Virus record (IMG/VR): IMGVR_UViG_3300009158_000097
Span: 1-39,126 of that record
From: a virus
Length of the DNA: 39,126 nt
Direction: 5' to 3' (one strand)
Under the pieces are notes generated by a model. The model did no database searches. It worked only from the letters and a program-made list of their open reading frames with translations, and had not been told where the DNA came from. This document shows positions 14,706 to 35,585 of this stretch, piece after piece (within the stretch, counting starts at the first letter, position 1; each line of letters opens with the position of its first letter). The translations under genes were made by a program, and so were the position numbers.

Positions 14706-15353
14706 ATGAACACATTCCTGATTAAAAAAGAACATTTAGACACAGATAACTTCTACGTAGGCATGGAAGATCTGAGTAACTACCAAGGACATATAGAGGC
14801 GGAGGAGAATCTAGGTACAATAAGGTTCAAGACTGAGTTAATAGCTTCTGGTAATATATACTTTAGGTCTGGTAGTGGTATTAAAGCTGGTTGGGGTATT
14901 AAAGCTAGTAGTGGTATTAAAGCTGGTTTGGGTATTGAAGCTGGTTTGGGTATTGAAGCTGGTTTGGGTATTGAAGCTGGTAGTGGTATTGAAGCTGGTA
15001 GTGGTATTGAAGCTGGTCACGGTATTGAAGCTGGTCACGGTATTGAAGCTGGTAGTGGTATTGAAGCTGGTTTGGGTATTGAAGCTGGTTTGGGTATTGA
15101 AGCTGGTAGTGGTATTGTAGCTGGTTACGGTATTATTTGTAAGGGGGAACTTTCGAGTAAATTGAGAATATTTGCCGGATTAGCTACTTGGAAAATACCT
15201 ACTAAAGAAGAGATGCAAATAAAAGTAGGTAAATTAGTACAGGGTCAGGTATGTTACGGAGAGTTAATTGAGACCGGATTGCCAAAGGAAGATTGCTGTG
15301 ATGGTAAAGTGGTTGAGATCGAAGGTAAGAAGTATCAACTAAAGACTATATAA
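14706..15353 (+). CDS. GxGIEA hexad-repeat solenoid protein
   Basis: 215 residues in three parts. N-terminal ~55 residues lead into a beta segment (HIEAEENLGTIRFKTELIAS). About 16 six-residue repeats follow (residues ~57-145), consensus G-x-G-I-E/K-A, where x is W, S, L, H or Y, from codons TGG, AGT, TTG, CAC and TAC. A ~65-residue C-terminal cap has two cysteines (DCCDG). The hexad period with a regular I suggests a left-handed or bactofilin-like beta-helix with x exposed on one face. Similar repeat tracts occur in other phage proteins of unknown role. First gene of a trio with 15379 and 15654. Confidence 0.75.
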   Translation: MNTFLIKKEHLDTDNFYVGMEDLSNYQGHIEAEENLGTIRFKTELIASGNIYFRSGSGIKAGWGIKASSGIKAGLGIEAGLGIEAGLGIEAGSGIEAGSGIEAGHGIEAGHGIEAGSGIEAGLGIEAGLGIEAGSGIVAGYGIICKGELSSKLRIFAGLATWKIPTKEEMQIKVGKLVQGQVCYGELIETGLPKEDCCDGKVVEIEGKKYQLKTI

Positions 15354-15378
15354 ATAAATAATTAAACAACTAAAAAAT

Positions 15379-15651
15379 ATGAAAATGCAACCAATTAAAG
15401 TAGTAGAAGTAGAGAATGAAGGTCTTTTGTCATTACTCGGAGAAGAGGTATTAGTAATGTGTTCTAACTACTTCTACGGGGGAAAGCTGGTAGGAATTAA
15501 CGACACTTGTATTAAACTGGAGAATGCTCATGTAGTGTACGAAACAGGTCCATTTACAGGTGAGAAATATAAAGATGCACAAAAAGTAGGAGACGAGTAT
15601 TATATCCAACTTGCAGCTATAGAGTCTTTTGGTAAATCTTCTAAACTTTAA
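15379..15651 (+). CDS. conserved VxETG...DAQ protein
   Basis: 90 residues. VVEVENEGLLSLLGEEVLVM, CSNYFYGGKLVGIND, VVYETGPFTGEKYKDAQKVG and a C-terminal IESFGK. This ordered pattern recurs in phages; the first two-thirds look like an Sm-like or small beta-barrel fold. In my recollection such genes are often followed by dipeptide-repeat ORFs, as here, but I cannot verify this. It follows the hexad-repeat gene by 25 bases. Confidence 0.7.
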   Translation: MKMQPIKVVEVENEGLLSLLGEEVLVMCSNYFYGGKLVGINDTCIKLENAHVVYETGPFTGEKYKDAQKVGDEYYIQLAAIESFGKSSKL

Positions 15652-15653
15652 TT

Positions 15654-15815
15654 ATGAGCTATATTAAATTTAAAAAGAGGTCTGGGTCTGGGTCTAGGGC
15701 TGGGTCTTGGTCTTGGTCTTGGTCTAGGTCTGGGTCTGGGTCTAGGGCTGGGTCTAGGTCTTGGTCTGGGTCTAGGTCTAGGTCTGGGTCTAGGTCTTGG
15801 TCTGGGTCTATATAA
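15654..15815 (+). CDS. S-x dipeptide-repeat protein
   Basis: 53 residues. The start MSYIKFKKR is followed by about 22 dipeptides S-x with x = G, R or W (occasionally A-G), ending SI. The variable codon is GGG, AGG or TGG, so only its first base changes; Ser is always TCT. It starts two bases after the previous stop, so it is probably cotranslated. A highly charged, aromatic low-complexity protein; function unknown. Confidence 0.65.
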   Translation: MSYIKFKKRSGSGSRAGSWSWSWSRSGSGSRAGSRSWSGSRSRSGSRSWSGSI

Positions 15816-16414: not shown

Positions 16415-16471
16415 ATAAACAAATACTTGAGAAATAATGCTCAAGTGTCAAAATTATCCGTTACTTTTATC
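16415..16471 (+). promoter_or_regulatory. cassette promoter block, TTGAG...CTCAA subtype
   Basis: AATAAACAAATACTTGAG...CTCAAGTGTCAA, box TACTTTTATC at 16462-16471; serves 16517. Confidence 0.75.
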
Positions 16472-16473
16472 AA

Positions 16474-16497
16474 GAGACAATCAATAAAGATTGACTC
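16474..16497 (+). promoter_or_regulatory. 5' leader hairpin, class 2
   Basis: GAGACAATC/GATTGACTC stem. It differs in sequence from the 9068 hairpin yet keeps most pairs, suggesting selection on structure. Confidence 0.55.
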
Positions 16498-16516
16498 CTA
16501 AAAACAATAACAGAAT

Positions 16517-16723: not shown

Positions 16724-16725
16724 TA

Positions 16726-16783
16726 TAAAAACAAATACCTGAGAAATAACTTTCAAGTGTCAAAAGTTTTAAGTACTTTTATC
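16726..16783 (+). promoter_or_regulatory. cassette promoter block
   Basis: AAAAACAAATACCTGAG...CAAGTGTCAA, box TACTTTTATC at 16774-16783; serves 16820. Confidence 0.75.
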
Positions 16784-16785
16784 TA

Positions 16786-16799: not shown

Positions 16800-16819
16800 A
16801 AACCAAACAACAACAGAAT

Positions 16820-17053: not shown

Positions 17054-17083
17054 TCCGCCCTTCCCTAACCGGGTATCATAGTA

Positions 17084-18786: not shown

Positions 18787-18900
18787 ATGAAAGAAATTAT
18801 TTCACGGCTTTGGCGTCCACTCGACTGGCAGCTCGCCTCACAGCTCCACTCACAGCTCTACTCACAAATTGAGTCTAAGATTTCCTCGAATATAATATAA
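18787..18900 (+). CDS. xSQL tetrapeptide-repeat protein, copy F
   Basis: 37 residues: the leader MKEIISRLWRPLDWQL, then units with x = A, H, Y, and a distinct tail (SQIESKISSNII) shared in form with copy G. Box, one base, ATG: apparently leaderless. A short frame, but its family membership is unmistakable. Confidence 0.6.
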   Translation: MKEIISRLWRPLDWQLASQLHSQLYSQIESKISSNII

Positions 18901-18926: not shown

Positions 18927-19022
18927 ATGAAAGAAATTAACTCACAGCTCTACTCACAGCTCGCCTCACAGCTCTACTTGCAGCTTAGCTCACAAATTGA
19001 GACTAAGATTTCCAGTAACTAG
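18927..19022 (+). CDS. xSQL tetrapeptide-repeat protein, copy G
   Basis: 31 residues: MKEINSQL, units with x = Y, A, then YLQL and SSQI, and the tail ETKISSN. A tandem paralogue of copy F, 26 bases downstream, differing in unit number and variable residues. Confidence 0.6.
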   Translation: MKEINSQLYSQLASQLYLQLSSQIETKISSN

Positions 19023-19523: not shown

Positions 19524-19688
19524 ATGAAACAAATTAACCCACAGCTCGACTCACAGCTAAGCTCACCGCTCCGCTCACAGCTCTACTTGCAGCTCGACTC
19601 ACAGCTCGCCTCACAGCTTTGGCGTCCACTCGTCTCACAGCTCCGCTCACAGCTCTACTCACAGCTCTACTGGCCGCTCAAAAACTAA
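19524..19688 (+). CDS. xSQL tetrapeptide-repeat protein, copy H
   Basis: 54 residues. The start at 19524 is chosen over an upstream in-frame ATG because of the promoter box and the leader MKQINPQL. Twelve units with x = D, S, R, Y, D, A, W, V, R, Y, Y; variants SSPL, YLQL, WRPL and YWPL. Confidence 0.65.
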   Translation: MKQINPQLDSQLSSPLRSQLYLQLDSQLASQLWRPLVSQLRSQLYSQLYWPLKN

Positions 19689-20841: not shown

Positions 20842-21003
20842 ATGAAACAAATTAACTCACAGCTCGACTCACAGCTTAGGCGTCCATTCGCCTCACAGCT
20901 TTGGCGTCCACTCGACTCACAGCTCGCCTCACAGCTCTACTCACAGCTTTGGCGTCCACTCGCCTCACAGCTCTACTCACAGCTTCAGCGTCCACTCACC
21001 TGA
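20842..21003 (+). CDS. xSQL tetrapeptide-repeat protein, copy I
   Basis: 53 residues: MKQINSQL, then xSQL units alternating with five R-P-L/F variants (RRPF, WRPL, WRPL, QRPL...), so about every third unit is of the xRPL kind. Ends LT with TGA; the repeat-like DNA continues a little past the stop, suggesting a 3' end moved by mutation. Confidence 0.6.
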   Translation: MKQINSQLDSQLRRPFASQLWRPLDSQLASQLYSQLWRPLASQLYSQLQRPLT

Positions 21004-21558: not shown

Positions 21559-21631
21559 GGTACTAAAGCTAACTAGGTAGAAGCGCCAGACTGAAAATCT
21601 GGAGGAATTGGGTCGATACCAATTAGTACCA
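21559..21631 (+). tRNA. tRNA-Phe(GAA)
   Basis: Acceptor GGTACTA/TAGTACC, anticodon arm CCAGA-CTGAAAA-TCTGG, discriminator A. CCA is not fully encoded. Confidence 0.9.
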
Positions 21632-21701
21632 CACAAAAACATAAAAATGAAACGAAAATGATAGCGCCACTTTGAAATACGAGTGGCAAACTTTAAAGAA
21701 T

Positions 21702-21773
21702 GCGCTTGTAACTCAGAGGCAGAGTACTCGGCTTTTAACCGAGGTGTCGAGATTTCGAAATTCTCCGGGCGCA
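21702..21773 (+). tRNA. tRNA-Lys(TTT)
   Basis: Acceptor GCGCTTG/CGGGCGC, anticodon arm CTCGG-CTTTTAA-CCGAG, T loop TTCGAAA, A73. Confidence 0.9.
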
Positions 21774-21779
21774 CAGTAA

Positions 21780-21836
21780 GAAAACAAATATACGTCAAAA
21801 AGCTTTAAAATGTCGATTATTTTGTTTACTTTTATA
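21780..21836 (+). promoter_or_regulatory. cassette promoter block, TATACGTC subtype
   Basis: GAAAACAAATATACGTC...AAAATGTCGA, box TACTTTTATA at 21827-21836; serves 21863. Confidence 0.7.
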
Positions 21837-21862
21837 ATATAGCAAACAACAAACAGCAAGAC

Positions 21863-22108
21863 ATGAAGCAGAGAGACATATTGATGGTATTCATAGACAG
21901 GATGAAACGACTTGGGATAGAAGTAAAGCTCACGGGTAATTTTCCTTGGATATATGTTGATAGTGTGAATGGGAGGAGAATAAAAAAGGAAGATTACTTT
22001 TGCGGCAACCATGGATTTACTATAGCATTTATGCCAATAAAGCCAGGACAAGAATTGAAATTCACAGACATAAGAGAACTTTTTAAACTCATAAGAAAAT
22101 ATAGATAA
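21863..22108 (+). CDS. conserved small phage protein
   Basis: 81 residues (RDILMVFIDRMKRLGIEVKL, GNFPWIYVDSVNGRRIKKED, FCGNHGFTIAFMPI). The order 'G N x P W I Y ... V N G ... E x F ... H G F T' recurs in phage proteins of unknown function. The next gene starts one base after the stop. Confidence 0.65.
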   Translation: MKQRDILMVFIDRMKRLGIEVKLTGNFPWIYVDSVNGRRIKKEDYFCGNHGFTIAFMPIKPGQELKFTDIRELFKLIRKYR

Positions 22109-22109
22109 T

Positions 22110-22493
22110 ATGACAAGCGTACTAACTTTAGAAGATCTGCAAGAAAAGACAGAAGCTGAGATCATTAGACATTTGACTCAAGAGTATGGAGATGGTGATG
22201 GATCTGCTCTTGATAATAAAGAGGTTCTGATAGCATACGAGTCTGTTGGTTCGTGGGGATGCGATTCAAGCTCATTCTTCCTTCTGAGAGATAAGACATC
22301 AGGAGAGTTATTTGAGATCCATGGGTCACACTGTTCTTGCTATGGATTCGAGGGACAGTTGAATTTAGAATCTTCTTCAATATCGTCTCTTAAGTATAGA
22401 AATCGTGAAGGGTGCGTATTTAGCACTGGTGGATATGACGGAGATGAGACAGAAAATAAAAGAGCTGTAGATGAGTTTATAAAAAGTTTATAA
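22110..22493 (+). CDS. conserved GSWGCDSSSFFLL protein
   Basis: 127 residues. YESVGSWGCDSSSFFLLRDK (residues ~43-62) and EIHGSHCSCYGFEGQL (~68-83) are the core of a widespread phage protein of unknown function; the invariant Cys residues suggest metal binding or structure. The C-terminus is a helix after a gapped acidic loop. Confidence 0.75.
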   Translation: MTSVLTLEDLQEKTEAEIIRHLTQEYGDGDGSALDNKEVLIAYESVGSWGCDSSSFFLLRDKTSGELFEIHGSHCSCYGFEGQLNLESSSISSLKYRNREGCVFSTGGYDGDETENKRAVDEFIKSL

Positions 22494-22497
22494 AAAG

Positions 22498-22569
22498 CGT
22501 GCGTAGCTCAAATGGCAAGAGTATCGGCTTCCAAACCCGAGGATGAAGGTTCGAATCCTTACGTGCGCG
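22498..22569 (+). tRNA. tRNA-Trp(CCA)
   Basis: Acceptor GCGTGCG/CGTGCGC, G73 as typical for Trp. Anticodon arm TCGGC-TTCCAAA-CCCGA with a C-C mismatch next to the loop, so the anticodon read is CCA. Confidence 0.8.
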
Positions 22570-22575
22570 CATAAT

Positions 22576-22648
22576 ACCCACATAGTTCAACGGATCAGAA
22601 CACTTGGCTACGGACCAAGAGATAGGAGTTCGAATCTCTTTGAGGGTA
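22576..22648 (+). tRNA. tRNA-Arg(ACG)
   Basis: Acceptor ACCCACA/TGAGGGT (one mismatch), anticodon arm CTTGG-CTACGGA-CCAAG, A73. A34 would need host deamination to inosine. Confidence 0.85.
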
Positions 22649-22654
22649 CAATAA

Positions 22655-22726
22655 GGTTGATTGGCCGAGTGACTTAGGCGCAAGTCTGCAAAACTTGCTA
22701 CATAGGTTTGAATCCTATATCGACCT
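22655..22726 (+). tRNA. tRNA-Cys(GCA)
   Basis: Acceptor GGTTGAT/ATCGACC, anticodon arm CAAGT-CTGCAAA-ACTTG, T73 as usual for Cys. Confidence 0.9.
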
Positions 22727-22760
22727 CAGCGTGATCTTTGACATATTGGAAAGTAAATAT

Positions 22761-22835
22761 CTAGACGTAGTTTTAATACGCGCAAAACTCTCGGTTTGGG
22801 ACCGAGGATTACCAGTTCGAATCTGGTCGTTTAGA
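22761..22835 (+). tRNA. tRNA-Pro(TGG)
   Basis: Acceptor CTAGACG/CGTTTAG, D arm AGTTT/AAACT, anticodon arm CTCGG-TTTGGGA-CCGAG, A73. Confidence 0.88.
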
Positions 22836-22877
22836 CAGTGGTTTGGTGCCATTAGACTTCAGGGAAACGGCACAAAT

Positions 22878-22949
22878 AGTCCCTTAGCTCAACGGGAGAG
22901 CACTTGGCTTACATCCAAGAGGTTGTGATATCGTAATTCACAGGGACTA
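22878..22949 (+). tRNA. tRNA-Val(TAC)
   Basis: Acceptor AGTCCCT/AGGGACT, anticodon arm CTTGG-CTTACAT-CCAAG, A73. The T loop (ATCGTAA) departs from the TTCRANY norm. Confidence 0.85.
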
Positions 22950-22994
22950 CATAAAGATGAACTCGCGGCGCACTTTTCAAAAGCCTCGCGCCCT

Positions 22995-23068
22995 GCAAAA
23001 TTAGTATAGCGGTAGTACACTAGCCTTCCAAGCCTGTGGCGTCAGTTCGATTCTGACATTTTGCTCCA
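22995..23068 (+). tRNA. tRNA-Gly(TCC)
   Basis: Acceptor GCAAAAT/ATTTTGC, loop CTTCCAA as in bacterial Gly(TCC), T73 and an encoded CCA. The anticodon stem has two mismatches. Confidence 0.85.
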
Positions 23069-23123
23069 GTTCACATTTTCAATTCGTTCAGGTTTCTTGA
23101 ACATGTAGAAAAAATGAACACAT

Positions 23124-23195
23124 AGTCGCTTAGTATAAAGGCTAACACGTCAGGTTTTGGTCCTGAAGATAGTGGTTCGATACCATTAGCGACTA
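23124..23195 (+). tRNA. tRNA-Gln(TTG)
   Basis: Acceptor AGTCGCT/AGCGACT, anticodon arm TCAGG-TTTTGGT-CCTGA, T loop TTCGATA, A73. Confidence 0.88.
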
Positions 23196-23262
23196 CGAAA
23201 AATCAAACATATAAGTGACGACCTCGTATGCTCTTGTTGACACTCTGGAAAGACAGAGACTG

Positions 23263-23345
23263 GGTAGTGTAATGCGTAATGGGAAAGCGGTTTATCTCAT
23301 CCATATTTGGTTGCATCGTCATAGGTTCGAATCCTATCGCTATCA
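23263..23345 (+). tRNA. tRNA, isotype uncertain, perhaps CAT
   Basis: Acceptor GGTAGTG/CGCTATC and T arm ATAGG-TTCGAAT-CCTAT are good, A73. At 83 nt it has class II length. The best anticodon loop is CTCATCC (CAT), closed by only three pairs, and C37 is unusual. It is either degenerate or unusually folded. Confidence 0.55.
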
Positions 23346-23351
23346 CTATAC

Positions 23352-23423
23352 GGGTCTTGAAGCTTTAAGGTGAAGCGCATGTTTGTGGAGCATGATAACT
23401 CGGTTCGATACCATGCTAGACCC
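23352..23423 (+). tRNA. tRNA-His(GTG)
   Basis: Anticodon arm CATGT-TTGTGGA-GCATG. It has C73 opposite an extra 5' G, the His identity pair. Acceptor GGTCTTG/CTAGACC with one mismatch. Confidence 0.88.
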
Positions 23424-23431
23424 CAAAAAAA

Positions 23432-23518
23432 GGAAGATAGGCGAATGTTGGTTTGTCGTACATGTCTGCTAAACATGATGGTGTAAAAGCTACGAGAGTT
23501 CGATCCTCTCATCTTCCG
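23432..23518 (+). tRNA. tRNA-Ser(GCT)
   Basis: Acceptor GGAAGAT/ATCTTCC, anticodon arm CATGT-CTGCTAA-ACATG, long variable arm, T arm GAGAG-TTCGATC-CTCTC, G73 as for Ser. Confidence 0.9.
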
Positions 23519-23523
23519 CACAT

Positions 23524-23595
23524 GGAACTATAGTAGAATGGTTAGCACACCTGCCTGATAAGTAGGTAATTCAAGTTCAAATCTTGATAGTTCCA
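23524..23595 (+). tRNA. tRNA-Ile(GAT)
   Basis: Acceptor GGAACTA/TAGTTCC, anticodon arm CCTGC-CTGATAA-GTAGG, A73. Confidence 0.9.
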
Positions 23596-23603
23596 CATAA
23601 ATT

Positions 23604-23679
23604 GGTTATATGGCGCAGATGTTAGCGCAACATACTTTTAATCTTTTGGTCGTAGGTTCGATCCCTACTATACCCGCCA
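23604..23679 (+). tRNA. tRNA, probably Lys(TTT), degenerate
   Basis: Acceptor GGTTATA/TATACCC with one mismatch, T arm GTAGG-TTCGATC-CCTAC, G73 plus encoded CCA. The loop CTTTTAA gives TTT, but the anticodon stem pairs at only three of five positions, and G73 is unusual for Lys. The isotype is uncertain. Confidence 0.6.
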
Positions 23680-23696
23680 CTAAAAAGATAGTTTGA

Positions 23697-23726
23697 TAAT
23701 TGTCAAGATCTTTTAGTACTTTTATA
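23697..23726 (+). promoter_or_regulatory. promoter inside tRNA cluster
   Basis: TAATTGTCAAG and box TACTTTTATA (23717-23726), 15 bases before tRNA-Tyr. The long upstream block of the cassette type is missing. Confidence 0.6.
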
Positions 23727-23741
23727 ATACAGTAAAACAAT

Positions 23742-23825
23742 GGGGGTAATGCTCGAGTTGGTTAGGCGTGGGACTGTAAATCTCATAATCCGCATGGATG
23801 GTAGGTTCGATTCCTTCTACTCCCA
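23742..23825 (+). tRNA. tRNA-Tyr(GTA)
   Basis: Acceptor GGGGGTA/TACTCCC, anticodon arm TGGGA-CTGTAAA-TCTCA, class II variable arm, A73. Confidence 0.9.
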
Positions 23826-23829
23826 CATT

Positions 23830-23901
23830 GGTCTTTTAGTGAAATGGCTATCATACTGCACTGTCGATGCAGAGTAGACGGATCGAAACCGTCATGGACC
23901 G
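23830..23901 (+). tRNA. tRNA-Asp(GTC)
   Basis: Acceptor GGTCTTT/ATGGACC, anticodon arm CTGCA-CTGTCGA-TGCAG, G73 as for Asp. Confidence 0.9.
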
Positions 23902-23908
23902 CATTTTT

Positions 23909-23982
23909 GTACCTTTAGCTCAGTTGGTTAGAGCGCCGGCCTCATAAGCCGTAGGTCACAGGTTCAAACCCTGTATGGTACA
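23909..23982 (+). tRNA. tRNA-Met(CAT), elongator-like
   Basis: Acceptor GTACCTT/ATGGTAC, anticodon arm CCGGC-CTCATAA-GCCGT. It lacks the three G-C pairs of initiators. It could instead be an Ile2 tRNA whose C34 is modified. Confidence 0.85.
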
Positions 23983-23984
23983 CA

Positions 23985-24117
23985 TTAGCCCGAAGGCCAA
24001 GGGATCGAAGATAGGAAAGTCTGGTTAAGGTGGATAGTATCCACTACCAGCCACTAAACCTCTGGATCGTATGCCAGCACAGTTAGCAACTCTGGGGATA
24101 ATCTAAAAGTTGCAATT
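23985..24117 (+). other. spacer with hairpins between tRNAs
   Basis: 133 bases without gene or clear tRNA. GTGGATAGTATCCAC is a tight hairpin nested within CTGG...CCAG, and GCAACT near 24089 pairs with AGTTGC near 24109. It is longer than other spacers in the cluster and may be a small RNA or a decayed tRNA pair. Confidence 0.4.
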
Positions 24118-24192
24118 GGACGCGTAGTTTAATCGGAAAAATACTTGCCTTGTAAGCATGAGTCCCCGGGTCGGTTCCGGGTGTGTCCTCCA
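24118..24192 (+). tRNA. tRNA-Thr(TGT)
   Basis: Acceptor GGACGCG/TGTGTCC, loop CTTGTAA, T arm CCCGG-GTCGGTT-CCGGG, T73 with encoded CCA. Confidence 0.88.
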
Positions 24193-24204
24193 AAAATTAA
24201 AGTC

Positions 24205-24435
24205 ATGAAACAACCAAAGACAATAAAGATCAAACCGGGCTCAGAGAAAACTTTATACAAACTTCCAGATACTCCTATTGCTTGTAAATTACAGGAGAGG
24301 GAGATCGGAGATGAATCAAAGATAGTATACATAGTCAATCCAAAGTATCTAAAAGATTCAAAAGATCCAATAACAGCTTCACCATATCTCGCATTTACGC
24401 ATAATGAGTATGAGGTGGTTGATTGGACAGAATAA
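24205..24435 (+). CDS. hypothetical protein
   Basis: 76 residues from the ATG at 24205; the frame opens earlier within tRNA-Thr, which cannot be coding. KTIKIKPGSEKTLYKLPDTP, ESKIVYIVNPKYLKDSKD: beta-rich, basic. Sits between tRNA-Thr and tRNA-Arg. No family recognised. Confidence 0.6.
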   Translation: MKQPKTIKIKPGSEKTLYKLPDTPIACKLQEREIGDESKIVYIVNPKYLKDSKDPITASPYLAFTHNEYEVVDWTE

Positions 24436-24441
24436 TATTTT

Positions 24442-24514
24442 GGCTTTGTAGTATAATGGACCAGTACGGGGAGCTTCTACCTCCCAAGTTCAAGTTCGAT
24501 CCTTGACAAAGCTA
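24442..24514 (+). tRNA. tRNA-Arg(TCT)
   Basis: Acceptor GGCTTTG/CAAAGCT, anticodon arm GGGAG-CTTCTAC-CTCCC, A73. Confidence 0.9.
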
Positions 24515-24536
24515 CACTTTTAAAACATACAACATA

Positions 24537-25151
24537 ATGAAGATCACGCTAAAAGAAGGTCAGGGTATATTCTTTACCTCAGATACGCACATAAATCACA
24601 AGAATATTTGTCGAGGAGTAACTTCTTGGACTGGGGATTTAAATAGGACTCGGGATTTTGATAGTCTGGAAAGGATGAACTCTACTATAATCGACAACAT
24701 AAACAGTCGAGTTGGTCAAGACGATATCTTGATTCACCTTGGAGACTTCTCTTTCGGTGGTCACCAGCATATCCCAGAGTTTCGTCAGCGCATTATTTGT
24801 CAGAATATAGTATTTATATTGGGAAACCATGATGAGCATATCCAGAAGAACACAGATAATTATCAGTCATTATTCTCCTCAGTACAACATTACTTAGAAC
24901 TTGAGGTCAATGGTAGCAAATTTGTCCTAAGTCACTTTCCTATAGCATCTTGGAATAATATGAGCAAGGGGTCTATGCATCTTCACGGTCATGTTCACTT
25001 TGATAAGACAATGAAACTTGGACCAGGAAAGATGCTCGATATTGGAGTGGACGGTAATAATTTTATTCCGTATTCTTTACGAGAAGTGATTGGATTACTA
25101 AAAGATAGACCTATTAAATCTCTATTTAAAGTTGATCACCACGAACATTGA
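24537..25151 (+). CDS. calcineurin-like metallophosphoesterase
   Basis: 204 residues. All five metal-binding blocks are present: SDTH (15-18), GDFS (69-72), GNHDE (96-100), SHFP (132-135) and HGHVH (150-154). This is the YfcE/phage-type single-domain phosphoesterase layout, expected to cleave phosphodiesters or phosphomonoesters with two metal ions. Lying among tRNAs and followed by a P-loop kinase, it may take part in RNA end processing (inference). The substrate is unknown. Confidence 0.9.
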   Translation: MKITLKEGQGIFFTSDTHINHKNICRGVTSWTGDLNRTRDFDSLERMNSTIIDNINSRVGQDDILIHLGDFSFGGHQHIPEFRQRIICQNIVFILGNHDEHIQKNTDNYQSLFSSVQHYLELEVNGSKFVLSHFPIASWNNMSKGSMHLHGHVHFDKTMKLGPGKMLDIGVDGNNFIPYSLREVIGLLKDRPIKSLFKVDHHEH

Positions 25152-25175
25152 TTTTTCTTTTTGAGAATAAACCGT

Positions 25176-25185
25176 TACTTTTATA
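25176..25185 (+). promoter_or_regulatory. promoter box TACTTTTATA
   Basis: Two bases before the ATG at 25188, which fixes the start of the kinase gene. Confidence 0.6.
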
Positions 25186-25187
25186 AC

Positions 25188-25592
25188 ATGGAAAAGGTAT
25201 TAATAATTTTACGAGGACTTCCAGGATGCGGTAAAAGTTCATTTGCAAAGATGATTTGGTCAGAGCATGCGATATGTGAGGCTGATCAGTATTGGTATGA
25301 TAAGGATGGTAACTATAACTTTGATGCTTCCAAGTTGAGACAGGCGCATGAATGGTGTCAAGCCAAAGTAAGACAATTCATGGAAGATCATCAAATCAAT
25401 GGAGAGATAGTAGTCTCAAATACAAGCACGACTGAGAAGGAACTCCAACCATATCTTGATCTCGCAAATGAATATGGGTATAAAGTAGTCTCTTTGATAG
25501 TAGAAAACAGACATGGAAACTCAAATGTACACAGTGTACCCCAGGAGACTCTACAGAAGATGAAAGACAGATTTCAAATAAAGCTGATATGA
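25188..25592 (+). CDS. AAA_33-type P-loop kinase
   Basis: 134 residues. Walker A GLPGCGKS (10-17), an acidic site EADQYW (31-36), RQAHEWC (51-57), and NTSTTEKELQPYLDLA, followed by a C-terminal VHSVPQETLQKMKDRFQ lid. This is the layout of small phage AAA_33/polynucleotide-kinase-like proteins that phosphorylate nucleic-acid ends or nucleosides. The start at 25188 is preferred to 25161, which lies inside the promoter. Neighbouring phosphoesterase, cREC and distant RNA ligase suggest an RNA-repair role. Confidence 0.85.
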   Translation: MEKVLIILRGLPGCGKSSFAKMIWSEHAICEADQYWYDKDGNYNFDASKLRQAHEWCQAKVRQFMEDHQINGEIVVSNTSTTEKELQPYLDLANEYGYKVVSLIVENRHGNSNVHSVPQETLQKMKDRFQIKLI

Positions 25593-25708
25593 TAAGCAGA
25601 CTAATAAAGATATTCAATCACGAAGTTTGGATGATATGCGGGAAATGTGGATTAGAGTATGATGCTCGAAGATCAGAATATTGCGACTCATGCAGACATA
25701 AAAACTAA
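25589..25708 (+). CDS. zinc-ribbon peptide
   Basis: 39 residues. ICGKCGLEYDARRSEYCDSC gives two C-x2-C knuckles (Cys 17, 20, 32, 35) of a zinc ribbon. Overlaps the kinase stop by four bases (ATGA) and ends two bases before the helicase start, so it is embedded in this operon. Probably a nucleic-acid or protein adaptor. Confidence 0.65.
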   Translation: MISRLIKIFNHEVWMICGKCGLEYDARRSEYCDSCRHKN

Positions 25709-25710
25709 AA

Positions 25711-27438
25711 ATGACTTTATCATATAGAGAGTTCGACAATTTCGTTAAGTTAAAATTCCCAGGTTTCAAGTACAGAAAAGGTCAGAGAGATGCGATCGAG
25801 GATATCATTAAGAGCTATAACCTCAATAAAAATGGAGTGTATCTTTTGGACGCCCCTACTGGTTCTGGTAAGTCACTGATAGGTATTTTATTTTCAGCCT
25901 TTATGGCAAGCAGAGGTAAAAAAGGCTACATTCTGACTTCGGACATTAGTCTACATGATCAATATACGAGAGACTTTTCGAAGTACGGTCTTATAAATTG
26001 GGGACAGATCAAGGGAGTAGATAATTACAATTGCACGCTCAATAACGAAAAGTTTTCAATAGGTGAATGTAAAAATAAAGGACTAAATTATCAAGAATCC
26101 GAAAAGCTTAATTGCTATAATGCATGTGGGTATTTCCAATCAAGGAAAAAAGCCATAAGCGCAGATGTATCACTCTTGACTTACTCATATGGTTTGATAC
26201 AAAGAAACTTCGTAGAGGACAAATCACAAAATGGATCAGCATTCGAGCAGAGAGACTTTGTAGTATGTGATGAGGCTCATAAGGTAGTTGAATTAGTTCA
26301 AAGTCACTTTAGTCCAAAGTTAAGCAAAAAAACTGCAGAGAATGTACTTAAATTGACTTTAGGTTTAGCAGATATAGGCTTTCCTAATGTTCTGATACCA
26401 GTAGATCAGCTCAAAGAGACAATAGATGATATTGTACATGAAGAGGATAAAAACGTCCTCTTGAAGCACCTGAAGCGCTCTATGATTATCCTAGGTAAAG
26501 CTCAGTCTTATAGAGACGAAGTTCAAAAGGACGCTAAAGACCGGTTTGGCAGCGAAAATGTGCCAAGTAACTGGAAAGCTGTATTTAAGAATTTTGACTA
26601 TGTGAAAGATGTGCTTTGTAAGGTTGAAGATTATATAGAGATAATCGAGAAGAGTGGACTACATTTCATGATAAAGGCGATGAAAGACGATGAGGCAACA
26701 TTCAACTGTCTTGATGAGAGATATTTGATGGAGAAGCACTTCCTGAATAGATTTGGTTTCAAGTTACTAATGACTGCGACTATGGGATCAAAGACCGAAT
26801 TCGAGAGTAGCATAGGAGCAAAGAAGACATTTTATAGAAAGATGGATTCTATCTTTGATTTCTCAAGATCTCCAATATATTTTTATCCAAAAAGAAGGAT
26901 GGGATTGAAAGATATCGAAAAGAATATGCCCTGGTTAGTGAAGACAGTATCAGATATTATGGACGCGCATCCTACAGAGTCTGGAGTTATACATTCTGGG
27001 TCATATGATCTTGGCAATAAGCTTCTCTATCGACTATCAAAAGCAAAGCAAAAGAGGATCCATGTTTATAAAGGTACTGAGGAGAAGATGGATAGTCTTA
27101 AGAAGTTCATTGATACCCCAGGTAATATTCTTATAGGTCCATCGCTCTTAGAAGGTTTGGATCTCAAGGATGATAAAAGTCGCTTACAGATATTCTTAAA
27201 AGTGCCTTATCCTAATTTGGGCGATAAGTATGTTTCTGAGAAGATGAAATATTCCAAGGGTTGGTATAGTTGGAAGACATGCACTTCGATACTTCAAGGA
27301 ATAGGAAGATCAGTAAGGTCAGAGGAAGATTGGGCCGTTACTTATTTCCTTGATGGATGTTTAACAGATTTGATAACTAGATCAGCAGATAATTTTCCAG
27401 ATGAATTCTTGGAGAGGATAATTATAAAAGAAGATTAA
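25711..27438 (+). CDS. DinG/XPD-like Fe-S helicase
   Basis: 575 residues. Walker A DAPTGSGKS (47-55), DEAH box (187-190), and in the C-terminal half GVIHSGSYDLGNKL, LEGLDLKDDKSR and the arginine-finger motif QGIGRSVRSEEDW. Four cysteines between motifs I and II (108, 120, 135, 139) fit the Fe-S cluster of superfamily 2 XPD/DinG helicases, which move 5'-3' and resolve structured DNA or R-loops. The start two bases after the zinc-ribbon gene implies an operon. Confidence 0.9.
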   Translation: MTLSYREFDNFVKLKFPGFKYRKGQRDAIEDIIKSYNLNKNGVYLLDAPTGSGKSLIGILFSAFMASRGKKGYILTSDISLHDQYTRDFSKYGLINWGQIKGVDNYNCTLNNEKFSIGECKNKGLNYQESEKLNCYNACGYFQSRKKAISADVSLLTYSYGLIQRNFVEDKSQNGSAFEQRDFVVCDEAHKVVELVQSHFSPKLSKKTAENVLKLTLGLADIGFPNVLIPVDQLKETIDDIVHEEDKNVLLKHLKRSMIILGKAQSYRDEVQKDAKDRFGSENVPSNWKAVFKNFDYVKDVLCKVEDYIEIIEKSGLHFMIKAMKDDEATFNCLDERYLMEKHFLNRFGFKLLMTATMGSKTEFESSIGAKKTFYRKMDSIFDFSRSPIYFYPKRRMGLKDIEKNMPWLVKTVSDIMDAHPTESGVIHSGSYDLGNKLLYRLSKAKQKRIHVYKGTEEKMDSLKKFIDTPGNILIGPSLLEGLDLKDDKSRLQIFLKVPYPNLGDKYVSEKMKYSKGWYSWKTCTSILQGIGRSVRSEEDWAVTYFLDGCLTDLITRSADNFPDEFLERIIIKED

Positions 27439-27491
27439 TTATATCTTATAGTAGTCTGGTTACGTCAAACATAACTATGGTGATATGAAAT

Positions 27492-27576
27492 GCTCCGATG
27501 ATGAAATTGGTAGACAGCGCAGACTTAGGATCTGCGGTCGTAAGACGTGCGGGTTCGAATCCCGCTTGGAGCACCA
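27492..27576 (+). tRNA. tRNA-Leu(TAG)
   Basis: Acceptor GCTCCGA/TTGGAGC, anticodon arm GCAGA-CTTAGGA-TCTGC, class II variable arm, T arm GCGGG-TTCGAAT-CCCGC, A73, encoded CCA. Confidence 0.93.
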
Positions 27577-27589
27577 AAAATATAAAAAT

Positions 27590-28018
27590 ATGGAAAAGAC
27601 TTGGATATATCTAGATGATGTAAGAACTCCAGTAGCGAGTAATTTAGATAAAATGTGGACTATTGTAAGAAATTACGATGAGTTTATTTCAAAGGTTTCT
27701 GAAATTGGTCTTGATAATATTGAGGTCATATCGTTAGATCATGATCTTGGAGACTCGGCGATGGCAGAATTCTATACAAACGTATCTCCAAATTACAAGC
27801 TTGACTATATTAATATAACCGAGAAGACTGGGATGGATTGCGCAAAGTGGTTAGTAAATCTAAGTATAGAAACACAAGTTCCGTTACCGCAAATATATAC
27901 ACATAGCGCGAATCCAATAGGTAGTGCCAATATCATGGGTTACGTAAATAATTATCTAATGAGAAGTAGACTACCTCAGAGTTGCATTAGAGTACAAATA
28001 AATCACACAGTATCATGA
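27590..28018 (+). CDS. cyclic-phosphate processing receiver (cREC) protein
   Basis: 142 residues from the ATG at 27590; the frame opens within tRNA-Leu, which is not coding. YLDDVRTP (7-14), SLDHDLG (48-54) and TGMDCAKWLV near 79-88 are the hallmarks of the cREC domain, a receiver-like fold predicted to act in RNA repair with kinases, ligases and phosphoesterases. In this window all those partners are present. Stop overlaps the next gene by four bases. Confidence 0.85.
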   Translation: MEKTWIYLDDVRTPVASNLDKMWTIVRNYDEFISKVSEIGLDNIEVISLDHDLGDSAMAEFYTNVSPNYKLDYINITEKTGMDCAKWLVNLSIETQVPLPQIYTHSANPIGSANIMGYVNNYLMRSRLPQSCIRVQINHTVS

Positions 28019-28473
28019 AAGATTTTAAGACGCTATATGACAAGAAAAGTGTAGATATCATAAATTATATCAAGGGTTACTTAAGTTCTCACAAAGACAT
28101 AGAGATATTGATAGGGTGTGATTCTCAGGTAAAAGGTAGAGAGACTGTGTATGCACTAGTTTTGGCTATGTATACTCCAGGTAAGGGCGCTCATGTTTTA
28201 TATGATAGGTTTACTACTCCAAAAGATAGAGAGATATCAACTAGACTTATGAATGAAGTATGGCACTCTATAAATCTCGCTGATGAATTGATGAATGCTG
28301 GACTTCCAAGAGCAAAGTACATCGATATAGATCTAAATCCAGATCCGAGATATAAATCAAATGAAGTTTTAAGAGCTGCGGTTGGTTGGGCAGAAGGACT
28401 CGGGTATTCAGTAAGACATAAGGGAGATTCTCCCATGATGACATATTGCGCCGATCTTCTGGTTAAGTCTTGA
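28015..28473 (+). CDS. YkuK/DUF458-type RNase H-like protein
   Basis: 152 residues. IEILIGCDSQVKGRETVYAL (residues 29-48) carries the first catalytic Asp. It is followed by RLMNEVWHSINLADEL, YIDIDLNPD and a final AVGWAEGLGYSVRHKGDS: the YkuK-like RNase H fold. A nuclease or nucleic-acid-binding role is inferred from the fold. Coupled to the cREC gene by ATGA overlap. Confidence 0.8.
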   Translation: MKDFKTLYDKKSVDIINYIKGYLSSHKDIEILIGCDSQVKGRETVYALVLAMYTPGKGAHVLYDRFTTPKDREISTRLMNEVWHSINLADELMNAGLPRAKYIDIDLNPDPRYKSNEVLRAAVGWAEGLGYSVRHKGDSPMMTYCADLLVKS

Positions 28474-28486
28474 TATTTATATTCGC

Positions 28487-28834
28487 ATGGCATCACACGT
28501 ACTTTCTTTTAAAAATCAAGAGGAGTTCTTCCAAAAGATAAAGGATAAAGATAGAGACCTTATAGTTAAGATGGTCAAGACAGTGTTATATGCAATCAAA
28601 CATAAGAAGTCTAAGGTGGATGTATTCGAGGTTATATTCACTGATATCAAATATTATAGGGATCGGAAAGAGTTGATATTTACAAAGGATAAGAAAGATT
28701 ATATTCCTACTTTAAAAGCGGCAATGGATGAATTAATTAAATTTGAGGAATATGAATTGTGCGCAGAGATCAAGGAATTACTTGATAAAAAGAAAAAAAG
28801 AAACTCGAAAGAAAAACTACCTTTTTTAAATTAA
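28487..28834 (+). CDS. hypothetical protein with UVR-like tail
   Basis: 115 residues, lysine-rich. The C-terminal EEYELCAEIKELLDKKKKRN resembles the UVR motif of UvrB/UvrC and ClpC (YE.AA.IRD.I..L). The N-terminal part is helical and unassigned. It is the last protein gene before the tmRNA. Confidence 0.6.
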   Translation: MASHVLSFKNQEEFFQKIKDKDRDLIVKMVKTVLYAIKHKKSKVDVFEVIFTDIKYYRDRKELIFTKDKKDYIPTLKAAMDELIKFEEYELCAEIKELLDKKKKRNSKEKLPFLN

Positions 28835-28840
28835 AAGACG

Positions 28841-28850
28841 TATATTTATA
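28841..28850 (+). promoter_or_regulatory. promoter box TATATTTATA for tmRNA
   Basis: AAAGACG lead-in and box, 19 bases before the mature tmRNA 5' end; the leader would be removed by RNase P. Confidence 0.55.
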
Positions 28851-28869
28851 GCATATAAAGCACAAAATT

Positions 28870-29261
28870 GGGGCATACTGGTTTTGACAGCAATAGAGCT
28901 CTTTGAGATGATGCAAGCAGTGCTAGATTGGACGCACTTTAATCTACCTATCAAAACACAAATGCAAACGTAGAACTTTCTACATGGACATTCGAAGATG
29001 CTATGGCATTCTGCGAAGGTGAGCTAGCAGTGGCTGCCTAAGTCCTTGGGCCGGTGCACATACGCCTAGAAACAGAAGTGCCTTCAGAGGGAGCTAAGAG
29101 ATTTACCCGCTGTAAAAAAAGAATACTCGGTAGGTTTTTGGTAACAATCGTACGAGAAGAGGAACCAATATTTTGTCTAGTTAGAAAACGAGAATAAGCT
29201 TGTGAATGAGTCTAATTGATAACATTGTTTGGACGAGGGTTCGAATCCCTCATGCTCCACC
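28870..29261 (+). ncRNA. ssrA: transfer-messenger RNA (tmRNA)
   Basis: The 5' end GGGGCAT pairs with ATGCTCC at the 3' end with a G3-U70 pair and A73, the alanyl-tRNA synthetase identity elements. The T arm GAGGG-TTCGAAT-CCCTC is intact and CC is encoded. A tag frame begins GCA-AAC at 28964 and stops with TAA at 29041: 25 residues starting ANVELSTWTF and ending ELAVAA. It rescues stalled ribosomes and tags products for proteolysis. The tag is much longer than the usual 8-15 residues and ends AVAA rather than ALAA. Pseudoknots were not resolved by eye. Confidence 0.93.
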
Positions 29262-29325
29262 GGGATCAGAAAATAAAATATCTGATTACACAAAACAAAG
29301 ATTGCAAAAATTAGAGAAGTTTTAG

Positions 29326-29335
29326 TACTTTTATA
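29326..29335 (+). promoter_or_regulatory. promoter box TACTTTTATA
   Basis: Box after the tmRNA; its transcript would start near 29342 and enter the small-RNA candidate. Confidence 0.6.
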
Positions 29336-29341
29336 ATATAG

Positions 29342-29417
29342 CAATCAAATAAAGATGATCGGCGAAAAAGGGGCTGATGACAACAATATAGATGTTGACA
29401 ACCTACGATCATTTTTT
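29342..29417 (+). ncRNA. candidate ~75-nt small RNA
   Basis: ATGATCG (29355-29361) pairs with CGATCAT (29406-29412), extendable by A-U pairs, followed by six T: a terminator-like closing stem around about 45 bases. A promoter box sits directly upstream. An ORF of 27 codons from 29355 runs into the next tRNA and is unlikely. Confidence 0.5.
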
Positions 29418-29428
29418 AAAAATTATAT

Positions 29429-29501
29429 TGCGCTGTAGAGCAGTGGTTAGCTTATCGGGCTCATAACCCGAGGGTCGTGGGTTCGAATCCCACTGGCGCA
29501 A
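29429..29501 (+). tRNA. initiator-like tRNA-Met(CAT)
   Basis: Anticodon arm TCGGG-CTCATAA-CCCGA has the three consecutive G-C pairs that mark initiator tRNAs. Acceptor TGCGCTG/TGGCGCA starts with a weak U1-A72 pair instead of the usual C1-A72 mismatch. A73, CC encoded. Confidence 0.9.
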
Positions 29502-29535
29502 CCGAATTAAATTAAAAGGTTTTAAATTAAAAAGT

Positions 29536-29715
29536 ATGAAAAAGATTGTAATTTTTAGAAAAGAAGAAGGCAATCCAGATAAGGTTGTTTTAAGAGCAAT
29601 AACCCCCTCAACTGCTTGGCAGGGTTATACAAAAGCTGGAGTTGTAATTGATGCAGAGGCTAAAAATCTCGCAAGAGCGTTAGAACCTAGCTTTACGGGG
29701 TACTATCTCGCATAA
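29536..29715 (+). CDS. hypothetical protein
   Basis: 59 residues (MKKIVIFRKEEGNPDKVVLR, then TPSTAWQGYTKAGVVIDAEA and SFTGYYLA). Small alpha/beta protein between two tRNAs. No family recognised. Confidence 0.6.
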   Translation: MKKIVIFRKEEGNPDKVVLRAITPSTAWQGYTKAGVVIDAEAKNLARALEPSFTGYYLA

Positions 29716-29721
29716 AACATT

Positions 29722-29793
29722 GCTCCCATCATCTAGCGGTTAGGATGACAGGTTTTCGACCTGTTTACACGAGTTCGAATCTCGTTGGGAGTA
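29722..29793 (+). tRNA. tRNA-Glu(TTC)
   Basis: Acceptor GCTCCCA/TGGGAGT, anticodon arm ACAGG-TTTTCGA-CCTGT, T arm ACGAG-TTCGAAT-CTCGT, A73. Confidence 0.9.
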
Positions 29794-29818
29794 CTAACCA
29801 AATAAAAACAAAAACAAA

Positions 29819-33215: not shown

Positions 33216-33254
33216 TATTGCAATAAGTTCACACATCAAATCAATCAAACAATC

Positions 33255-34649
33255 ATGGAAAAAAGACAATACAAACACCGGAAAACTGGTCAGATAGCAG
33301 AGATGAAATCTGCAGGTGACTGGTATACAATAGAAGATCGATATGGTATGCCGAAAGAATACATCGAGGGTACACAAGACTGGGAACTTATTGCAGAAGA
33401 GAAAGAACCAGAGTATACAATACTGCAGTTCGAGAAAGTGAAAGGTGTAACCAAAAGTGATAGATGGTGGAATCTACAGGGAAATGGTGAATATGCATCA
33501 GCTGCTTATAGTTACACAGTACCACTAGATAGTATGATGAATATCGGATGTAGTGTGAAGGATGGTTCATTCCGTATATACCAAATTCGCAGGAATAGTG
33601 ACAAGAGTGTATGGACTGTAGGTGACAAGTATGTAAGTTTTCAGGTACCCTTACTAGGTATACGTACTATAGAGAAGTTTGTTATCGATGATGAAAGTAT
33701 AGGTATACGTGCTGTAGAAGCAATATCAGCTGATCCAATTACTACATCACTGAAGTATCTCACTGTACTAGTAAAACCTACATGGGTAATAGAATCGTTT
33801 AGTACGAATGAAACACCTACAGTTGCACAATTCTGGAGAGTCAATGATGAAAGATACTCGACAGAAAAAGACTGGGTAAAAGGAGGTGGTCAAGTTTCAC
33901 TTAGTGCTATGTTACATGATGGGAGTTGTGTAGATACAGGTGAGTGGGTTATACATAGTGTACGTGCAGACAAGAACTCACCAGTAATAGCTATCAATGA
34001 CTGGATTACTGCAGAGTATACACATATGGGTAATACGCCAATGCAGGTAGAAGGGTTTGCGATCAATGACAAGAACAACCTGTTGATCAAGACCAGGCAG
34101 TTCAGGACACATGGTGTAGGTATAGAGAACTGTAGGAAAGTAGATGCACCTGTAGAGAAGAGGCCACTATTTACCACCGAAGATGGAGTAGATATATACA
34201 ACAGACAACATCCAGTACTCTACTGGTTAGAGATCAATAGCGACTGTACAGGTACTGATGATGCCAATACCATATACAATCCAGATATAGTAGACTACAA
34301 GTACTGGGCATCTGCTGAAAAAAGAAAACAGTATATAGATACTCACAGAAAGAAATCTACAGAACAAATAGCCAAGGTAGGAGAGTATGGGATAGGTAAA
34401 GGAGGAGGCCATGTTGTGAAAGTGCTAGTAGTGAAACCTACTAAGTATCAGGTTGAGTTCTGTAACGGGGAAAGAGACTGGTACAATCATGATACAATCC
34501 GTCTAGCTACACAGGAAGAAATAAATAGGGACTGGGGCAAAAAGAATCCAGTAGAGTGTGATCCCGGTAGAAAGTATATAGTGAAACTGACAGAGGGACA
34601 AATAGAGAAACTCCAAACATTCCTACAAGATGGAGTGATATACTGGTAA
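33255..34649 (+). CDS. hypothetical beta-rich protein
   Basis: 464 residues. Short beta modules: KTGQIAEMKSAGDWYT at the N-terminus; PTWVIESF...FTTEDGVDIYNRQHPVLYWL (residues ~318-337), a pattern seen in other phage proteins; and a C-terminal unit ending in a helix. Many Trp/Tyr. No enzymatic motif recognised. Confidence 0.65.
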   Translation: MEKRQYKHRKTGQIAEMKSAGDWYTIEDRYGMPKEYIEGTQDWELIAEEKEPEYTILQFEKVKGVTKSDRWWNLQGNGEYASAAYSYTVPLDSMMNIGCSVKDGSFRIYQIRRNSDKSVWTVGDKYVSFQVPLLGIRTIEKFVIDDESIGIRAVEAISADPITTSLKYLTVLVKPTWVIESFSTNETPTVAQFWRVNDERYSTEKDWVKGGGQVSLSAMLHDGSCVDTGEWVIHSVRADKNSPVIAINDWITAEYTHMGNTPMQVEGFAINDKNNLLIKTRQFRTHGVGIENCRKVDAPVEKRPLFTTEDGVDIYNRQHPVLYWLEINSDCTGTDDANTIYNPDIVDYKYWASAEKRKQYIDTHRKKSTEQIAKVGEYGIGKGGGHVVKVLVVKPTKYQVEFCNGERDWYNHDTIRLATQEEINRDWGKKNPVECDPGRKYIVKLTEGQIEKLQTFLQDGVIYW

Positions 34650-34694
34650 TGATATTATCCAGGGTGATTGTTAGATAATGTAAAAGGACAAACA

Positions 34695-35585
34695 ATGAAA
34701 AATCAAATAGCAACACAAGAATTACCCATAAGAGGTTACAAAGTAGCCGATAGTACTGGAAGATGTAGAGGTCATCTATTCGAAGTAGGAAAAGAATATA
34801 CACATTCTGGAAATATAAAGATATGCAGTGAGGGTTATCACTTCTGTCTGAAAGCAAGCCACTGTTTCAGCTATTACTCATTCAATAGCAATAATACAGT
34901 ATTTGAAGTAGAAGCTATTGGAGAGTATCAGACGCATGAAGCGGATAGCAAGATATGTACAAGTCATATACGGATAGTACGTCAGTTAGATTGGAGTGAG
35001 GTATTGACAGTAGCCAATGAGGGAAAAGATAATACTGGTCATTCGAACAGTGGAAACAGTAACAGTGGAGACTGGAACAGTGGAAACAGGAACAGTGGAG
35101 ACAGGAACAGTGGAAACAGGAACAGTGGAAACAGTAACAGTGGAAACTGGAACAGTGGATACAGGAACAGTGGAAACTGGAACAGTGGAAACTGGAACAG
35201 TGGAGACAGGAACAGTGGATACAGTAACAGTGGAGACAGGAACTCAGGCGCATTCTGCACTATCAAACTACCATTCACTCTGTTCAACAAGAAATGCAAG
35301 ATGACAGAGGAAGAGTTCATCAATAGTAAAGCATATCAGTTGATGCAGAACAATGTAGATATATATATCTGGATACGAGAAAGTGTAATGACTGATCAGG
35401 AAAAGCTAGATAATCCGAAATACAAAACTACAGAAGGGTACCTAAAGACTATACCATTCAAAGAAGCGTTCAGAAATGCATGGGGAAACTGGACAATTGA
35501 CAACAAGAAAGCATTCACTACTCTGGAGAACTTCGACTGGAAATTGTTCACAGAAATCACAGGAATAGAAAAAGAAGCACTATGA
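34695..35585 (+). CDS. NSGxx pentad-repeat protein
   Basis: 296 residues from the ATG at 34695. The N-terminal domain (CRGHLFEVGKEYTHSGNIKI CSEGYHFC), about 100 residues, resembles a phage domain often found before such repeats (DUF7666-like, by recollection). Then about 15 pentads N-S-G-[N/D/Y]-[S/W/R] (residues ~113-184) encoded by AAC-AGT-GGA plus two variable codons. A ~110-residue C-terminal domain follows. The pentad period suggests a right-handed beta-helix. Overlaps the next gene by four bases. Confidence 0.75.
   Translation: MKNQIATQELPIRGYKVADSTGRCRGHLFEVGKEYTHSGNIKICSEGYHFCLKASHCFSYYSFNSNNTVFEVEAIGEYQTHEADSKICTSHIRIVRQLDWSEVLTVANEGKDNTGHSNSGNSNSGDWNSGNRNSGDRNSGNRNSGNSNSGNWNSGYRNSGNWNSGNWNSGDRNSGYSNSGDRNSGAFCTIKLPFTLFNKKCKMTEEEFINSKAYQLMQNNVDIYIWIRESVMTDQEKLDNPKYKTTEGYLKTIPFKEAFRNAWGNWTIDNKKAFTTLENFDWKLFTEITGIEKEAL

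Follow-up and report, generated by a model that had tools for sequence, protein, structure and literature searches.

Why does a single lake phage carry four kinds of short-repeat gene? The question is raised by the viral record IMGVR_UViG_3300009158_000097, a fragment of a larger genome, whose whole 39,126 bases are referred to here as the window. The four kinds are a hexad (GxGI(E/K)A), a pentad (NSGxx), a dyad (Ser-x) and a set of tetrads (xSQL), with x the variable residue. A sequence-only reading of the window had singled out these four designs, and they proved to be real, with Tandem Repeats Finder scores far above chance (322 for the hexad, 307 for the pentad, 164 for the dyad and 55–182 for the xSQL arrays). 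It had also described the variable codons correctly, as NGG in the dyad and as NAC and AGT/TGG/AGG in the pentad. The range of 14,706–35,585 that it gave does not cover all of the tetrads: the xSQL arrays are nine separate small open reading frames (ORFs), and five of them fall outside it, at 18–4805. The most informative feature was absent from that reading: the frames within each array are identical at silent sites too. Nearly all hexad units read GGT xxx GGT ATT (G/A)AA GCT, with TTG, AGT, CAC, TGG or TAC as x; the pentad unit is AAC AGT GGA NAC followed by AGT, TGG or AGG; the dyad unit is TCT NGG (N = G, A or T), GCT replacing TCT in two units; and the tetrad frame is mostly TCA CAG CTC.

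We compared the diversity of the variable codon with that of the frame in arrays from which redundancy, judged by shared DNA words, had been removed. In the hexad arrays, the first two bases of x had a mean diversity of 0.540 versus 0.045 at the fourfold-degenerate (4-fold) sites of the frame, with x higher in 46 of 46 arrays. The corresponding values were 0.562 versus 0.069 for the SQL arrays (x higher in 27 of 28) and 0.356 versus 0.138 for the pentad arrays (23 of 26), so that in independent arrays of the three families the variable codon was 3–12 times as diverse as the silent sites of its frame. Silent changes were depleted at x itself: they made up 2 of 69 one-step changes in the hexad, 4 of 65 in the SQL arrays and 11 of 139 in the pentad, whereas 17%, 19% and 16%, respectively, would be expected under neutrality (p = 3e-4, 4e-3 and 3e-3). 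The expectation that variable positions evolve faster than frame positions was thus borne out in these families, and a neutral explanation fails. Homogenization alone would strip x of its diversity, and a neutral x would resemble a silent site. Recombination among units, together with selection that holds x diverse, is the simplest interpretation. The pattern is well supported, and from it we infer diversifying selection as the cause.

The identity of x appears to be set at the protein level. In L331 the frame is written TCACAGCTA in 50 of 50 units, and x is G in 16, R in 12, D in 11 and W in 11. The silent code of the SQL frame varies among phages (AGCCAGCTC, TCGCAACTC, AGCCAGTTG or TCACAGCTA), and in SQL arrays found by protein search five residues (G, R, W, D and E) occupy x in 90% of 490 units, with differing codons (arginine being AGG, CGG or CGC). 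Loci retrieved by the xSQL DNA motif are biased toward silent-site identity; the protein-level set is free of that bias. Because the same residues return with different codons and different silent frame codes, the alphabet is set at the level of the protein. The proposal that all four designs share one alphabet held only for tryptophan, which makes up ∼11–44% at four of five variable positions, the exception being the pentad position occupied by N, D or Y. Apart from this, the families differ in the residues they use: G/R/W/D/E in the SQL arrays of DUF6745 proteins, N/D/Y and W/R/S in the pentads and W/E/S/T/L in the hexads. The amino acid mass common to two alphabets ranges from 0.03 (pentad position 4 versus dyad) to 0.59 (pentad position 5 versus dyad). 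The hexads, the tetrads and the last pentad position can be described as using tryptophan along with small and charged residues, with P, I and K nearly absent.

The order of x along the arrays is near random, and it changes between related phages. A sister contig, G001 (L309 plus L310; 25,959 bases), is syntenic with the window, with ∼75% amino acid identity and a 4-fold-site divergence of 52%, and its orthologous arrays have x orders and lengths other than those of the window. Nearly all variable codons in its five dispersed xSQL ORFs end in T or GG (GGT, GAT, AAT, TAT, AGG and TGG), as if units had been exchanged between dispersed arrays; in the window the xSQL variable codon is mostly NNC, and in L012 its third base is likewise mostly C. 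Barbavirus was represented by 115 isolates from a single host, of which 110 share at least 99% identity across the pentad gene. In the six haplotypes read, array substitutions lie exclusively in the variable codons and none in the frame; there are also gains or losses of one unit and apparent unit conversions (GATTGG to AATCGG). These data show array turnover between related phages and stability among close isolates. Metagenomic assembly may collapse repeats, and the cultured Barbavirus and Tweety genomes display the same signature.

Judged by alignment, the hexad protein belongs to a phage family that has no name and has conserved ends: both its N-cap and its C-cap are conserved among 15 viral homologues, and relatives occur in 121 viral stretches. 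No Pfam model matched the protein, and the annotated phages gave three partial matches. An AlphaFold2 model (predicted local distance difference test score (pLDDT) 84, predicted template modeling score (pTM) 0.73) places one short strand in each hexad and x at the turn, which supports a predicted beta-solenoid. Its best superposition was with 4wa0, a possible adhesin C-terminal domain (Z 13.7, root mean square deviation (rmsd) 3.0 over 151 residues). The model resembles YdcK-type beta-solenoids (PF18836) and left-handed beta-helix proteins in its short period, and in L232 the hexad gene has a YdcK-type array nearby that carries W, Q or R at its variable positions. Unlike those proteins, the hexad protein lacks a Pfam match, and the left-handed helices of the LpxA/GlmU type superposed on it with higher Z but at an rmsd of ∼12. 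As for the stacking of the solenoid, identity at the E/K position was low at lag 3 (z −2.6), which is not significant across eight lags, and x at lag 7 gave a z of 3.6. Searches of Pfam and PHROG with the product of the small conserved gene between the hexad and dyad genes gave nothing above threshold.

By its sequence matches, the pentad gene is an ordinary member of the DUF7666/Pentapeptide_2 family. Its product matched DUF7666 (PF24703; E 1.7e-27, 96 bits, curated cut-off 27), Pentapeptide_2 (PF01469; E 3.4e-14, 53 bits, curated cut-off 26) and phrog_14105 (E 3e-86). The family also occurs in cultured phages, and the entire architecture is that of proteins such as the Rheinheimera Barbavirus "pentapeptide"; the composition of the array is the window's own. 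The end domains were modeled at a pLDDT of 85–95, and Foldseek returned no fold match for the DUF7666 protein.

No xSQL array was found in annotated phages; a protein-level search recovered such arrays in other viruses and in one cyanobacterium. All 14 of the carriers tested outside the window's lineage are DUF6745 (PF20530) proteins above the Pfam cut-off, with the array directly before the DUF6745 domain, and the related frames SQV, GAV, AAT and DQL occur in phage DUF6745 or DUF6745-like proteins, including one of a Mycobacterium abscessus prophage. A DUF6745 scan with a single protein gave seven loci, three of them without an array. The homogeneous array is mostly absent from cyanobacterial chromosomal DUF6745 copies, one clear copy having the signature. 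The window shares the xSQL array with these phage and cyanobacterial proteins; unlike them, its lineage keeps array and domain as separate genes. The product of the gene at 1202–2224 matched PF20530 at 18.6 bits (19.4 in a second scan), below the cut-off of 27, with an E of 1.2e-3 and 96 profile positions in order; the gene and its flanking xSQL ORFs recur in the same arrangement in the sister phage. On this profile match, we presume the gene to be a diverged DUF6745 homologue and former xSQL carrier. We infer that the xSQL array may have left its DUF6745 carrier and multiplied into free ORFs. The stop and start codons of two xSQL ORFs overlap as ATGA at 4746–4749, and the same is seen in a series of xSQL ORFs in L012, which suggests coupled translation. 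Many xSQL arrays contain a recurrent variant unit, CTTTGGCGTCCACTC, encoding WRPL in place of xSQL (for example at 121–140, 2499–2511 and 20876–20955 of the window); in L009 and L014 the unit reads WRSL.

The dyad gene is small and belongs to this phage lineage. Its M..IKFKK start, Ser-x frame and TCTATATAA end are retained across three lineages, with x in a different order. The +1 frame of its DNA reads (Leu-Gly)n, and the variable base is silent there; the evidence for selection on Ser-x is therefore weak, and the coding evidence is the weakest of the families.

Table 1. Array genes of the window and the genes associated with them
Feature	Coordinates	Strand	Description
xSQL mini-ORF 1	18..209	+	MKEIN start
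DUF6745 homologue (presumed) without internal array	1202..2224	+	340 aa; 92% identical orthologue in sister phage; flanked by xSQL ORFs
xSQL mini-ORF 2 (diverged)	2403..2627	+	MKEIS start; sister phage has two xSQL genes at that position
xSQL mini-ORF 3	2845..3006	+	MKQIN start, NSKI end; positional orthologue in sister phage, probably also in L010 and L012; x order differs
xSQL mini-ORF 4	4552..4749	+	stop overlaps ATG of mini-ORF 5 (ATGA)
xSQL mini-ORF 5	4746..4805	+	19 aa
Hexad gene	14706..15353	+	215 aa; 15 units GxGI(E/K)A (x = S, W, L, H, Y) between conserved N- and C-caps
Small conserved gene between hexad and dyad	15379..15651	+	90 aa; 91% identity in sister phage
Dyad gene	15654..15815	+	53 aa; MSYIKFKK start followed by (Ser-x)n with x = G/R/W, encoded by (TCTNGG)n
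xSQL mini-ORF 6	18787..18900	+	xSQL array
xSQL mini-ORF 7	18927..19022	+	xSQL array
xSQL mini-ORF 8	19524..19688	+	positional counterpart in sister phage
xSQL mini-ORF 9	20842..21003	+	truncated by in-frame stop (TCACAG to TGATAG); array DNA runs on to ~21027
Pentad gene	34695..35585	+	296 aa; DUF7666 N-domain, ~16 units NSGxx, alpha-rich C-domain

The best precedent for such arrays is gp54 of mycobacteriophage Tweety, in which 12-base units with two variable codons (G/W/Q and S/Y) form an array between unique end domains. Its authors noted in 2007 that third bases were invariant and proposed selection for variation, and the number of repeats varies between Tweety gp54 and its relatives Che8 gp57 and PMC gp51 (PMC2884959). 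According to later reviews, Tweety mutants that escape defence have more or fewer repeats, and gp54 acts in counter-defence and can be tuned by repeat number (PMC9262239, PMC8549241). We recomputed the array and found 48 AAxx units, with GCC GCA in every frame (49 of 49) and GGG/TGG/CAG and AGC/TAC as the variable codons. Thus, Tweety gp54 and the families studied here share a frame that is homogeneous even at silent sites, combined with hypervariable codons; they differ in the frame itself (AAxx), and function has been tested for Tweety only. VR2 (bbp36) of Bordetella phage BMP-1 has been likened to Tweety gp54, as the copy number of its repeat array varies among isolates (PMC2884959). Its element of 24 bases is unlike the units here, and we set it beside them by description only. 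Borg amino-acid tandem repeats are in-frame, fast-evolving tandem repeats at the DNA level in large extrachromosomal elements (PMC9879509); unlike the arrays here, their units are nearly perfect and the hypervariable codon is absent. Our literature search on such arrays yielded useful reports on Tweety and Borg only, and neither DUF6745 nor DUF7666 was mentioned in the literature searched.

We propose that out-of-register recombination between units would homogenize an array, silent sites included, and that the same recombination would shuffle, add and remove units, while selection would maintain diversity at one or two exposed residues of each unit, drawn from the alphabet typical of the family. 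The array would then serve as an interaction surface or a spacer that can be rearranged quickly and that may bind or block changing components of host (or prophage) defence. That the arrays are recombination-shuffled surfaces or spacers with a role like that of Tweety gp54 in counter-defence has, in our estimate, a little less than an even chance; counter-defence as their purpose is moderately supported, by analogy. The suggestion of changeable binding surfaces or anti-defence scaffolds, already made from the sequence, is strengthened by the DNA signature of Tweety gp54, which bears on it by analogy only.

Several observations weigh against this proposal. The flanks of Tweety gp54 showed no homology to the hexad, pentad or DUF6745 proteins. 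The PHROG family to which it belongs, phrog_3416, was not matched by the hexad, pentad or xSQL proteins, and the ends of gp54 had no blastp match to the other array proteins compared. In the absence of flank homology, the claim is therefore that the arrays work like Tweety gp54, not that they are Tweety gp54, and the function is assigned by analogy. Known defence-system models gave marginal matches only. The variation of the dyad is that of a single base, for which an explanation at the protein level is unnecessary. AlphaFold2 gave no confident fold for the pentad array (residues 110–190, pLDDT ∼25), and the solenoid envisaged in the sequence-only reading gained support for the hexad and none for the pentad. 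The arrays are also stable in the short term, being identical in the window and its nearest relative, L011 (99.95% identity across 7.4 kb), and among L217–L222. Finally, the co-occurrence of the four families that a common purpose had been expected to produce was not borne out, as no joint occurrence was seen outside the lineage.

Of 50 viral records that carry the hexad, none had DUF7666, which was present in a single one of 43 relatives; the hexad was present in none of the 43 relatives, with one weak match among 35 pentad-bearing records. These counts led us to reject co-occurrence outside the lineage as proof of a shared purpose. Hexad, dyad and tetrads were found together only within this lineage, including the sister contig, as an inherited combination. 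DUF6745 was found in 5 of the 50 hexad records, in none of the 35 pentad records and in 1 of the other relatives outside the lineage, and its co-occurrence with the hexad is suggestive only. A second, different array lies within 6 kb at ∼9 of 73 non-lineage hexad loci and at none of the non-lineage RNA-ligase loci, a control that is unmatched and on which we do not rely. Similar-looking short-unit arrays were observed in other carriers (L226, L232, L266, L270, L293, L080, L128 and L166), with unit types that include the octad AWGNSSV, the YdcK-like GNAWVSGDAQVS, AARDAAWD tetrads and the 11-mer WAEYQRVTALA.

Two other roles for diverse, exposed residues are possible. The arrays may be receptor-binding or particle-surface proteins, such as decoys or fibres, that are diversified as host surfaces change. 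W, Y, S, D, N and R are frequent in binding sites, and the best superposition of the hexad model is on a possible adhesin domain. However, a common solenoid fold says nothing about function, no structural genes were recognized near the window arrays, and elsewhere the annotated neighbours are small genes of the early, replication or recombination type, and we consider an adhesive role rather unlikely. A passive spacer or scaffold, in which only array length matters and x varies because it is exposed, would agree with the near-random order of x and with the altered repeat number of the Tweety escape mutants (PMC9262239, PMC8549241). The depletion of silent changes at x and the restricted alphabets (almost no P or I and rarely K) point instead to selection on the identity or mixture of residues, which leaves this explanation unlikely.

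The remaining explanations place the cause in the DNA. If the arrays were coding micro- or minisatellites that slip neutrally, the variable codons would merely be unconstrained and one step from TGG or GGG. Many of them are indeed one-step neighbours (GGG/AGG/TGG/CGG), and at least 119 viral stretches contain TCTNGG, with any base at an N that is silent in another frame; in the dyad the depletion of silent changes is weaker (29 of 211). For the hexad, pentad and tetrads, slippage is contradicted by the excess diversity and silent depletion at x described above and by the return of the same amino acids with different codons, and 92 of 205 minimum-spanning steps in the hexad need two or three base changes; as a general account it is improbable, the dyad being excepted. 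A recombination site or binding array at the DNA or RNA level, with incidental ORFs, would explain why the lineage keeps TCA CAG CTC despite 33–57% divergence at other 4-fold sites, CTC being a rare leucine codon (12%) in the window. Yet the SQL peptide is written in at least six other silent codes in DUF6745 genes, the starts, frame and ends of the ORFs are retained, and several lineage members were retrieved by the DNA motif itself. Constraint on the conserved 12-mer TCACAGCTC-NNY is thus suggestive and ascertainment-biased, and we regard a purely nucleic-acid element as very improbable. Least probable of all is a diversity-generating retroelement or similar device that rewrites the variable codons. 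An AAC template under adenine mutagenesis would yield the NNC codons of the window's xSQL arrays, but in the sister phage T takes the third position, and TGG and AGG are common. The stability of arrays in near-identical contigs and among the Barbavirus isolates weighs against such targeted mutagenesis, and no reverse transcriptase or template repeat was recognized among the window proteins examined, which represent part of the ORFs of a genome fragment.

The window also encodes a transfer-messenger RNA with its own tag peptide and 21 tRNA genes (21559–29794), and its RNA-ligase relatives are mainly metagenomic phage contigs, the largest of 304 kb. A 68-base element (AAACAAATACCTGAG...TCAA...TACTTTTATAACATA) is present in 19 intergenic copies between 587 and 31976 (for example at 8746–8813, 14615–14682 and 16417–16484) and is probably a shared promoter or leader with a hairpin. 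An A-rich intergenic repeat of 18 bases occurs in ∼4 copies at 6958–7031.

Returning to arrays shuffled by recombination and kept diverse by selection, a broader and more doubtful claim is that they mark a widespread, largely unnamed phage class of "shuffled-code" proteins, in which unrelated carriers (the hexad family, DUF6745, DUF7666, Tweety gp54 and others) would bear recombination-homogenized arrays of restricted alphabet as evolvable anti-defence surfaces, one array having been freed from DUF6745 into genes acting in trans. Tweety gp54 was first described as an isolated curiosity; its signature is now seen in several unrelated families and many phages, cultured isolates among them, and in one clear cyanobacterial copy. 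The contrast between silent-frame and variable-codon diversity is a simple DNA statistic with which large lists of candidate counter-defence proteins could be drawn up, and through it the role of the phage pentapeptide, hexad and DUF6745 proteins becomes directly testable.

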